This document shows, one piece after another, positions 45,029 to 48,405 of a DNA stretch of 64,000 bases (positions are counted from its first letter, which is position 1; every line of letters starts with the position of its first letter). The translations under genes were made by a program, and so were the position numbers. This DNA comes from Salinirubrum litoreum (lineage in GTDB: Archaea > Halobacteriota > Halobacteria > Halobacteriales > Haloferacaceae). The DNA lies in the NCBI RefSeq assembly GCF_020567425.1, contig NZ_JAJCVJ010000001.1, positions 310,001 through 374,000 of the forward strand. Reading direction: 5' to 3'. A model generated the notes under the pieces. The model had not been told where the DNA came from. It searched no databases and saw only the letters and a list, made by a program, of their open reading frames with translations.

Positions 45029-45096
45029 CCGGGACTCCACTCCGCTGGCACGTTCCTGCGGCGAAACCGGGACTTCACTCCGCCGGCGCTTTCCGG
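45029..45096. repeat. Imperfect direct repeat at the cheR 3' end
   Basis: The 30-bp stretch at 45067-45096, which carries the cheR stop (45075-45077), is repeated at 45029-45058 with about 80% identity; in the outer copy the stop codon is lost (TCA to CCA on the plus strand). The core CCGGGAC is also seen at 45007-45013. Confidence 0.65.
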
Positions 45097-45875
45097 TAGA
45101 TTCGTCGCTCGCTGTCGACCGACTCGAACGTCTCTTTGAAGTCGCGGTGGACCGTCTCCGTCCGGCCGATGACGAGATACCCACCGGGCCGGAGCGCCTC
45201 GTCCAGCGTCTCGAAGATCGGTCGTTTGTACTGCGCGTCGATGTAGATGAACAGGTTCCGACAGACCACCATGTCGAACTCCCCGGGCGGCCTGTCCTGA
45301 ATCAGGTCGTGTTGGCTGAACTCGACGAGAGACTGCACCCGGTCCGTCACCCGGAACTCGTCACCTTCGCGGGTCACGTACTCCCCGGCAGTCGAGAGGG
45401 GATCGAGTTCCGCCGCGATGTCGGTCGTTCGGGTCGTGTGGTAGACGCCGTCCCGGGCACTTGCGAGGGCGTTCGGGTCGATGTCGCTGGCGAGGATCGA
45501 GAGCCGACTCGCCGCCACGTCCGCGTCGTCCAACGCCAGCATCGACAGCGTGTAGGGCTCTCGCCCGTCCGCACAGGGGACACTCCAGAGAGTCGCCCGC
45601 TGTCGCTCCTCGGTGAGCGCCCGAAGGATCGGGACGACCGCCGACCACGTCTCCGGGTTGCGGAAGAACCCGGTGACGTTGACGTTGAGCGAGTCCAGCA
45701 GGAGCGCCGGTTCGTCGGGGTCCGCCCGGAGTCGCTCGCGGTACTCGGCGTAGTCGTCGCAGTCCGTCCGGCGCATCCGCGCCGAGATTCGTCGGTCGAG
45801 GTACGCGTCGTTGTAGTAACTCGTCGCGAACCCGATCTCACGCTCGACGTAGTCGAGCAGGCGCTGGAAACTCAT
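45075..45875 (-). CDS. cheR: Chemotaxis protein methyltransferase CheR
   Basis: 266 residues from the ATG at 45873-45875. It methylates glutamates of chemoreceptors. Seen: N-terminal helical domain (LLDYVEREIGFATSYYNDAYLDRRISARMRRT), NVTGFFRNPETW, the SAM-binding strands (SVPCADGREPYTLSML, ILASDIDPNALASARDGVY), VVCRNLFIYI and GGYLVIGRTETV. The usual ACSTGEEPYS is altered to VPCADGREPYT. Divergent from the CheC-CheC-CheD gene, so both are in one chemotaxis locus. Confidence 0.95.
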   Translation of the reverse strand: MSFQRLLDYVEREIGFATSYYNDAYLDRRISARMRRTDCDDYAEYRERLRADPDEPALLLDSLNVNVTGFFRNPETWSAVVPILRALTEERQRATLWSVPCADGREPYTLSMLALDDADVAASRLSILASDIDPNALASARDGVYHTTRTTDIAAELDPLSTAGEYVTREGDEFRVTDRVQSLVEFSQHDLIQDRPPGEFDMVVCRNLFIYIDAQYKRPIFETLDEALRPGGYLVIGRTETVHRDFKETFESVDSERRIYRKAPAE

Positions 45876-46070: not shown

Positions 46071-46157
46071 ATGGTGTTCTGTGCGACGGAGGTCGACTCG
46101 CTCCGCACGGAGGGCGTCGCAGGGCCCCGGCGATTGCTCCGGTGGGTGAGACGCTGA
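46071..46157 (+). CDS. 28-residue leaderless small ORF before the CheC-CheC-CheD gene
   Basis: MVFCATEVDSLRTEGVAGPR followed by RLLRWVRR, a basic C-terminus. It starts where the promoter would begin transcription, and its TGA ends just 1 nt before the next ATG (46159). Translation of the two frames would therefore be coupled. Whether the peptide has its own role is unknown. Confidence 0.5.
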   Translation: MVFCATEVDSLRTEGVAGPRRLLRWVRR

Positions 46158-46158
46158 G

Positions 46159-48405
46159 ATGGACATCGACCTCCAGTCGCTCGAACGGTACAACAGACTC
46201 GCTCGGGTGGGGGCGGAGCGGGCGGCCACGTCGCTGTCGGAACTCCTCGGTGTCGAGACCGTCGTCGACGTCACTCGCGTCAGTCTCGTCTCACCCGAGA
46301 GTGCGCGCCGGTCGCTGATCGAAACTGTCGGGAGCACGTCACGATCTCGGACGTCGGGCCCGCACCGAACAGACGACTCGGGAACAGACGGCACGAATGG
46401 GACGGACGGCGTGAGCGGAGGAGACGGCGTAAGTGGGGAAGACGGCGCGAGTCGGAGCGTCGCTGATGATCGGAGAGACGGAGGTAGGAGCGAGACGAGT
46501 GGTGATACCGGAGAGCCGACGTGTGTCGGTATCACGCTCGAGGGCGGCATCTCCGGTCGGGCACTCCTCGGACTGGACGAGTCGAGTCGGGACAGACTCG
46601 TCTACGAGTTTCTCCCCTCTGTCGTCGGGTCGAGCGATCCGGCACACGCGGCCGGCGGTGTCGTCGAGGTGGGCAACATCGTCCTGCGGGGCTTCGTCGA
46701 TGGCTGGGCGGACCACCTGGGGACGAGCGTCGACACGACGCCCCCCAGGCAAGTGGACCCGAGAAGTCTCGACGGCGAATCGGCGTCGAGCGGCATCGAG
46801 GAGTTCGTCTTCCTCTTCGAGAGTGAACTCCGAGCAGTCGACGCCGACGTGCGCTTCGACGTCTGTATGCTCCCGGACTACGCGACGCTGACCACACTCG
46901 TCGGGGGCGCGACCGGCTTGACCGGTCCGACCGTCTCGCTCCGCCGACTCCGCCAGTTCCGGGCGGTCGTCGAACGCGGGACCGACCGCGCGAGCGACGA
47001 CATCGCGGCCATGACCGGCTTCGAGACCGACGTGGACGTAGACCGCTTCAGTTTCCTCCCGATCACGGAGACCCCGAACCACGTCGCTCCCGGTCGGCGA
47101 GTCGGCACCGTCTTCCACTTCGACGGGCCACCGTCGGGCTACGCGGTACTGTTGTTGTCCGAGCAGTCGGCAGCGCGAGTCGCGGACGAACTGCTCTCCG
47201 GAAGCGCGTCTGTCGCCGGCGACTCTCCCGCCGGTCGGTCGTCAGAGAGCAGGAGACGAGGACCTGATAGCACAGACGAGACTGGCCTGACTGCACTAGA
47301 GCGAAGTGCTGTCGGGGAGTTCGGAACCGTCGTGACGAGCGGGTTCGTGGACGGGTGGGCCGACGTGTTCGAAAGCGAGATCGACCTCTCGCCGCCACAG
47401 GTCGTCGAAGATGACGGGCGGTCGATCCTGAGTCCGATCGCGGGCCGACTCGCTCGAAGGCAGTCGTACGCCTTCGTACTCGACATCGGGGTCGAACCCG
47501 ACCGGGTACGCTGGGGAGGAGACGTCCGTGAGCCCGCGGACGAAATCGACTTCAGGCTCTCGATCTTCCCCGAGGAGACGAAACTCAGTCACGACTCACG
47601 AGAGCAGTCACGGCGTGTTCGGAACGCGGACGTGAACCAGCGACGCGGGCGTCGAAACTCGGGGAGCAGTCGCTGGCGTGGGTACACGCCTCGGCGAGAC
47701 GAACCTCGACGTCCTCAGGAGCATCGGTCCGGTGTCGAGACCGGCCACGGTGTCGCTGGCGATGACTCCGACGTGGACGGCGGATCAGCCGACAGGAACG
47801 ACGAACCGGACGACAGGAACGACGAACCAGCCGACGGGAGCACCGAACCGGACGATAGGCACGACGAACCGGACGACGCGGGCAGCGTGCCCGACGGGAC
47901 ATCGAGGAGTCGGGGACAGATCGGAGATACGGACGGCGACCGCCAGCAAGTCGGACTCGGCGAGTGTGCGGTGACGACAGACGGAGAGATACTGGCGACG
48001 AGCGGAATCGGCTCCAGTCTCGCACTCTGTCTGTACGACTCGGCTGGCACCGCGGGCTTCGCTCACGTGATGTTGCCGCGATCACGTGATCGTGACGACG
48101 CCACCGACGCGACGTTCGTCGATACCGGGATCGAGGCGCTCGTTCGACGGCTGGAGAAGACGGGTCTGGCTCGCGAGGATCTCGACGCGAAACTCGTCGG
48201 CGGGAGTCGAATGTTGGAGTTCTCGGCGGACGCGGGCGACATCGGTGCGCGAAACGTTCGCGTAGCCCGGCAGGAGTTCGGTGAACACGGTATTCCGGTC
48301 GTCTCGACACACGTCGGCGGTGACTACGGCCGGTCTGTCGTCTTCGACGGGGAGACTGGTGAGGTACTCGTTCGGACGGCCGACGGAACCGACAGTCGTC
48401 TGTGA
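46159..48405 (+). CDS. CheC-CheC-CheD chemotaxis fusion protein
   Basis: 748 residues. Domain 1 (about 1-265) and domain 2 (about 266-475) are CheC-like; domain 1 keeps E170 and N173 of the phosphatase motif (VVEVGNIV), domain 2 has E387 but T390 for the Asn (VGEFGTVV). A linker of about 120 residues, basic then acidic and repeated (DRNDEPDDRNDEP), leads to CheD (about 598-748): GECAVTTDGEILATSGIGSS, FAHVMLPRS, GGSRML, GGDYGRSVVFDGETGEVLV. In CheD of Thermotoga the deamidase triad is Thr21, Cys27, His44; here Thr614, Ser620 and His636, so the nucleophile is lost. CheC and CheD are usually separate proteins that bind each other. Confidence 0.9.
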   Translation: MDIDLQSLERYNRLARVGAERAATSLSELLGVETVVDVTRVSLVSPESARRSLIETVGSTSRSRTSGPHRTDDSGTDGTNGTDGVSGGDGVSGEDGASRSVADDRRDGGRSETSGDTGEPTCVGITLEGGISGRALLGLDESSRDRLVYEFLPSVVGSSDPAHAAGGVVEVGNIVLRGFVDGWADHLGTSVDTTPPRQVDPRSLDGESASSGIEEFVFLFESELRAVDADVRFDVCMLPDYATLTTLVGGATGLTGPTVSLRRLRQFRAVVERGTDRASDDIAAMTGFETDVDVDRFSFLPITETPNHVAPGRRVGTVFHFDGPPSGYAVLLLSEQSAARVADELLSGSASVAGDSPAGRSSESRRRGPDSTDETGLTALERSAVGEFGTVVTSGFVDGWADVFESEIDLSPPQVVEDDGRSILSPIAGRLARRQSYAFVLDIGVEPDRVRWGGDVREPADEIDFRLSIFPEETKLSHDSREQSRRVRNADVNQRRGRRNSGSSRWRGYTPRRDEPRRPQEHRSGVETGHGVAGDDSDVDGGSADRNDEPDDRNDEPADGSTEPDDRHDEPDDAGSVPDGTSRSRGQIGDTDGDRQQVGLGECAVTTDGEILATSGIGSSLALCLYDSAGTAGFAHVMLPRSRDRDDATDATFVDTGIEALVRRLEKTGLAREDLDAKLVGGSRMLEFSADAGDIGARNVRVARQEFGEHGIPVVSTHVGGDYGRSVVFDGETGEVLVRTADGTDSRL

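Follow-up and report, generated by a model that had tools for sequence, protein, structure and literature searches.

A candidate CheC3-CheD fusion protein of Salinirubrum litoreum with substitutions at two catalytic positions

We analysed a stretch of 64,000 nucleotides from Salinirubrum litoreum (assembly GCF_020567425.1, contig NZ_JAJCVJ010000001.1, positions 310,001 to 374,000), below called the window. It contains a gene in which a double-domain CheC and a CheD are read in one frame beside cheR. The catalytic cysteine of CheD and the catalytic asparagine of the second CheC domain are lost, though both are invariant in the other sequences compared, and the aspartate at the docking surface is kept. 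On these grounds we tentatively propose that fusion joined the two genes of a paralogous cheC3-cheD pair, and that the product may now be a largely non-catalytic adaptor of the binding type; we rate this at slightly under an even chance. The double CheC of Haloarchaea (CheC3), the adjacency of cheC3 and cheD, and the binding of CheC3 to CheD are known; fusion of the two into one chain is rare. Thus, of the unusual fusion claimed in the first-pass annotation, the joining of CheC3 to CheD stands as rare, whereas the pairing of two CheC domains proved to be ordinary for haloarchaeal CheC3.

The fusion gene and its domains

The gene is a single open frame of 748 codons, and its product has a computed mass of 79.5 kDa and a pI of 4.6 (Table 1). 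The two other forward frames contain 15 and 16 stop codons over the same interval. This agrees with the earlier description of one CheC-CheC-CheD polypeptide of about 80 kDa encoded next to cheR: two CheC folds and a CheD fold are found in the frame, and the neighbour is recognised as cheR by Pfam. Judging from the sequence, the likely start of cheR is the ATG at 45875, which leaves a divergent gap of 283 bp to the fusion gene. A short ATG-initiated frame of 28 codons (46071-46157, forward strand) stops just upstream of the fusion ATG; it may encode a leader peptide or be due to chance.

Table 1. Features of the fusion gene and its neighbour (window coordinates)
Feature	Coordinates	Strand	Basis
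cheR, divergent neighbour of the fusion	45075..45875	-	Pfam E 1.4e-43; start read from sequence
Shine-Dalgarno-like GGTGA, 9 nt 5' of the ATG at 46159	46145..46149	+	sequence
cheC3-cheD fusion gene, 748 aa	46159..48405	+	open frame; Pfam CheC and CheD; computed MW, pI
CheC domain A, residues 1-256, retaining its catalytic E170 and N173	46159..46926	+	AlphaFold2 model, 1xkr fold match, alignment
Domain A low-complexity insert (residues ~62-118), with predicted disorder	46342..46512	+	pLDDT
Domain A E-x2-N phosphatase motif, intact (E170, N173)	46666..46677	+	alignment
CheC domain B, residues 257-480	46927..47598	+	AlphaFold2; fold matches over about 257-479
Codon 390 ACC (Thr), domain B catalytic Asn position	47326..47328	+	alignment
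Codon 418 (Asp), B. subtilis CheC D149 equivalent, CheD interface	47410..47412	+	alignment with B. velezensis CheC
Linker, residues 481-597, ~117 residues, predicted largely disordered	47599..47949	+	pLDDT, charge counts
21-bp tandem repeat, 4.2 copies, DRNDEPD-like units encoded	47790..47877	+	repeat search
CheD domain, residues 598-748	47950..48402	+	Pfam; phmmer and structure match to 2f9z_C
Thr614 (T. maritima Thr21), kept	47998..48000	+	alignment
Codon 620 AGT (Ser), catalytic Cys position (T. maritima Cys27)	48016..48018	+	alignment to 2f9z_C
Retained catalytic His, codon 636 (T. maritima His44)	48064..48066	+	alignment

Homology to both families is clear. The Pfam CheC profile (PF04509) matches two stretches (E 2.6e-13; 50.1 bits, cut-off 22), the CheD profile (PF03975) matches residues 638-740 (E 1.2e-27; 96.7 bits, cut-off 25), and phmmer relates the CheD domain to T. 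maritima CheD 2f9z_C (E 1.2e-24). An AlphaFold2 model built with 59 aligned haloarchaeal relatives shows full CheC folds for residues of about 1-256 and about 257-480, followed at 601-748 by a CheD fold. Its mean pLDDT is 72, with values below 50 at 62-115, 502-570 and 572-600; at a pTM of 0.51 the individual folds of this model are trustworthy and the mutual placement of the domains is not. In structure comparisons the model matched T. maritima CheD 2f9z_C (Z 23.5; VIA search), CheC 1xkr (Z 22.4 over model residues 1-254) and the CheC-like protein 3qta of H. marismortui (Z 21.5). In the T. maritima CheC-CheD complex (2F9Z) both folds match those of the fusion (Z 22-23), and the equivalents of His44 and Thr21 are kept. 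However, the T. maritima proteins are separate chains, the CheD has Cys27 and the CheC is single-domain, and the fusion differs in all three respects.

Both CheC domains of the fused protein carry low-complexity inserts. The insert in domain A is missing from the other CheC3 proteins of the alignment and contains a tandem repeat (46405-46457). The linker falls into two halves by charge, the first arginine-rich and the second acidic. The first half (47599-47763) has 15 R+K against 7 D+E in 55 residues, which is odd for a haloarchaeal protein. Its coding score is better in another frame, and it may derive from former intergenic or out-of-frame DNA. The structured domains have a near-normal codon bias, whereas that of the inserts and linker is weaker, within the bottom 3-9% of control windows; we are therefore less sure of the history of these parts than of the history of the domains.

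The composition and frame score of the first half of the linker would also suit a different explanation, that two proteins exist and that a frameshift error in the linker or an internal start splits CheC3 from CheD. An error of this kind may underlie the apparent fusion in another genome, G353, described below. On the other hand, CheD and the acidic repeat share one reading frame, and the host assembly is 99.9% complete in 5 contigs. Restart of translation inside the linker is disfavoured, because a Shine-Dalgarno-like site is absent before every in-frame GTG or ATG of the linker and of the CheD start. We regard two separate products as improbable; the sequence leads us to infer a single product of 79.5 kDa.

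Active-site and docking residues

The catalytic triad of CheD consists of Cys27, His44 and Thr21 (PMC7022378). The fused domain retains His636 and Thr614 and has Ser620 in place of the cysteine, a position occupied by Cys in all 101 other distinct CheDs aligned. Both Cys and His are strictly conserved across the wider CheD-fold family (PMC7022378). In CheC domain B the E-x2-N phosphatase motif retains E387 and has threonine at residue 390, where the other CheC3 proteins have Asn in 99 of 99 alignment rows. Domain A keeps both residues of its motif; the N173 position is Asn in 60 of 100 rows and Gln or His in the remaining 40. The first-pass annotation had described a CheC phosphatase and a CheD deamidase. 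Of these activities, the phosphatase of domain A remains compatible with the residues present, whereas the changes of the CheD Cys to Ser and the domain B Asn to Thr go against the rest.

These changes also weigh on the explanation that the protein is a working tethered pair, in which Ser620 would serve as the nucleophile, or CheB would deamidate the receptors, domain A would be the phosphatase and the tether would speed CheC-CheD exchange. The intact E170/N173 and His636/Thr614 pairs and the intact AlphaFold2 folds are consistent with it. However, given the invariance of the CheD cysteine and of the domain B asparagine, and the conservation of Cys and His throughout the fold family, we consider a catalytically working pair quite unlikely.

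Residues associated with binding show a different pattern. D149 of B. subtilis CheC lies at the CheD interface (PMC3513319), and its equivalent in the fusion, D418, is at a position that is Asp in 100 of 100 rows. The CheD domain agrees with 24 of the 28 strongly conserved columns; of the four that differ, two are conservative Leu-to-Phe replacements. Against the binding-type adaptor, the F102-equivalent of the fused CheD is Leu, although Leu also occurs in 35 aligned CheDs. It likewise counts against the adaptor that the AlphaFold2 model, at a pTM of only 0.51, does not place the CheC and CheD domains reliably against each other.

Genome context, origin and possible role

The cheR gene beside the fusion is the only cheR found in the genome, and it lies outside the main che cluster. 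The latter (G000:C1 957000-976000; L007) contains cheW, cheY, cheB, cheA, a separate double-domain cheC and a separate cheD. The separate CheD is intact, with the catalytic GSC motif, and the separate CheC3 keeps its motifs too. Three receptors (MCPs) are encoded in the genome, one of which (G000:C1 965570-966067; L171) adjoins the separate cheD of the main cluster.

In the phylogenetic tree the fused copy groups with the CheC3-CheD proteins of its own family, and the copy from the main cluster falls among other families. Both branches are long, and sisterhood of the two copies of this genome is not rejected by the AU test (p 0.10). One possible history, put forward by inference only, is that the family's own cheC3-cheD pair became redundant beside another che cluster, was fused and lost catalysis.

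Alternatively, the gene may be a decaying paralogue: a spare cheC3-cheD pair that was fused, whose active sites were lost as selection relaxed, and which is now turning into a pseudogene without a function of its own. The second cheC3-cheD pair in the genome and the two catalytic residues changed at otherwise invariant positions fit this explanation. So do the long branch, the low-complexity inserts and the weak codon bias of inserts and linker, which are in line with relaxed selection and count against the adaptor. However, all 748 codons are still open, the docking Asp and 24 of the 28 conserved CheD columns persist, and codon bias is near-normal in the structured domains. Moreover, the main-cluster CheC3 (L007 9867-10901, reverse strand) diverges more than any other CheC3 in the comparison, with 24 of 63 conserved columns changed, and thus it would be too simple to call the fused copy the degenerate member of the two. 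Decay is a serious possibility, to which we give roughly one chance in three.

The binding-type adaptor draws further on two known systems, since binding outweighs the activities in one and a catalytic mutant still binds substrate in the other. In B. subtilis the CheC-CheD contact is reported to matter most, with the two activities contributing little (PMC3513319). The B. subtilis module shares with the fusion the interface aspartate, but consists of separate proteins, active enzymes and a single-domain CheC. NTAN1, a relative of the CheD fold with the same Cys and His, is inactivated by C75A, whereas its C75S form, made to hold the substrate, still binds with a KD of 27 nM for NLAAR (PMC7022378). 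The fold is common to the CheD domain and the CNF1/YfiH-like cysteine hydrolases to which NTAN1 belongs (Z about 11 for NTAN1 against the CheD domain of the model), although those enzymes keep the Cys. The natural Ser620 of the fusion resembles the laboratory C75S mutant. Together with the residues lost and kept, the B. subtilis and NTAN1 data support, without proving, a binding-only role.

If so, the tethered CheD would sit on CheC domain B, of its own or of a partner chain, and could still contact the receptors or the main-cluster CheC3, but would have no deamidase activity. Domain A may bind CheY-P and slowly dephosphorylate it. The fusion would then act as a competitor of the separate CheC3 and CheD, or as a buffer for them, and the feedback from CheY-P to the receptors would be damped. 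The earlier suggestion that a tether changes the feedback could therefore still hold, through binding more than through deamidation. A stricter form of the proposal, in which the protein is a natural binding-only CheC-CheD adaptor that lost the nucleophile and one CheC site, kept the docking surface and competes with the normal pair by trapping substrate, is in our opinion rather doubtful.

A natural protein that has the binding residues and lacks the CheD nucleophile and one CheC site would make the claim for B. subtilis, that binding prevails over catalysis, testable without engineered mutants. If the binding-only adaptor is real, it would be nature's evidence that the CheC-CheD contact, rather than enzyme activity, carries the adaptation signal. 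If the gene is merely a decaying duplicate, it has little import beyond annotation, where the label "active receptor deamidase" would be inappropriate. The importance of the fusion hinges on its expression and on partner binding.

Survey of haloarchaeal che loci

The first-pass annotation had proposed a domain search of haloarchaeal genomes for the same fusion, and this was carried out. We read about 120 loci that encode CheC, CheD or both. They come from overlapping searches that covered 60 relatives, 293 genomes belonging to the order and 119 belonging to the family; for the CheD family they were taken from among the matches listed, and rare fusions may have escaped notice among the weaker matches. 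Most of them have cheC3 followed by a separate cheD, often followed by cheR. The same neighbourhood and domain order are found in the fusion, with two CheC domains in one chain as in haloarchaeal CheC3, here joined to CheD (alignments and loci). The double-domain CheC3 of Hbt. salinarum is known to bind CheD (PMC3579733). However, haloarchaeal CheC3 and CheD are normally two proteins, whereas the fusion is one chain with a long linker and lacks the CheD Cys and the domain B Asn.

The window copy is the only credible CheC3-CheD fusion among the loci read from the matches listed; the same fusion was not found in another species among these approximately 120 loci, and it thus does not form a conserved family there. 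In the plasmid collection, only CheD-like matches in bacterial records were observed, none covering 80% of the query. A literature search, which reached few subscription papers, found no report of a CheC-CheD fusion.

Several candidates were rejected. In G353, CheC3 and CheD are in frame (L145 2544-5609, reverse strand), but relative to nine congeners one base is missing from a C run, and the genome is reported as 85% complete; this case may be a sequencing error. Long frames in relatives, such as that of L018 (595 aa), have CheC3 and CheD in different frames. The frame in L155 crosses a masked or gapped stretch.

The survey also yielded other unusual CheDs. The second-copy CheD of G057 (L071 4627-5091, forward strand), encoded together with cheA and cheC3, retains the Cys, but its catalytic His is replaced by Gln and its Thr by Ala or another residue; this is another possible pseudo-deamidase. 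Second che loci in two genomes of the same family (L147, L153) encode, beside a single CheC and a CheC3, a CheD with GLGAC instead of GLGSC.
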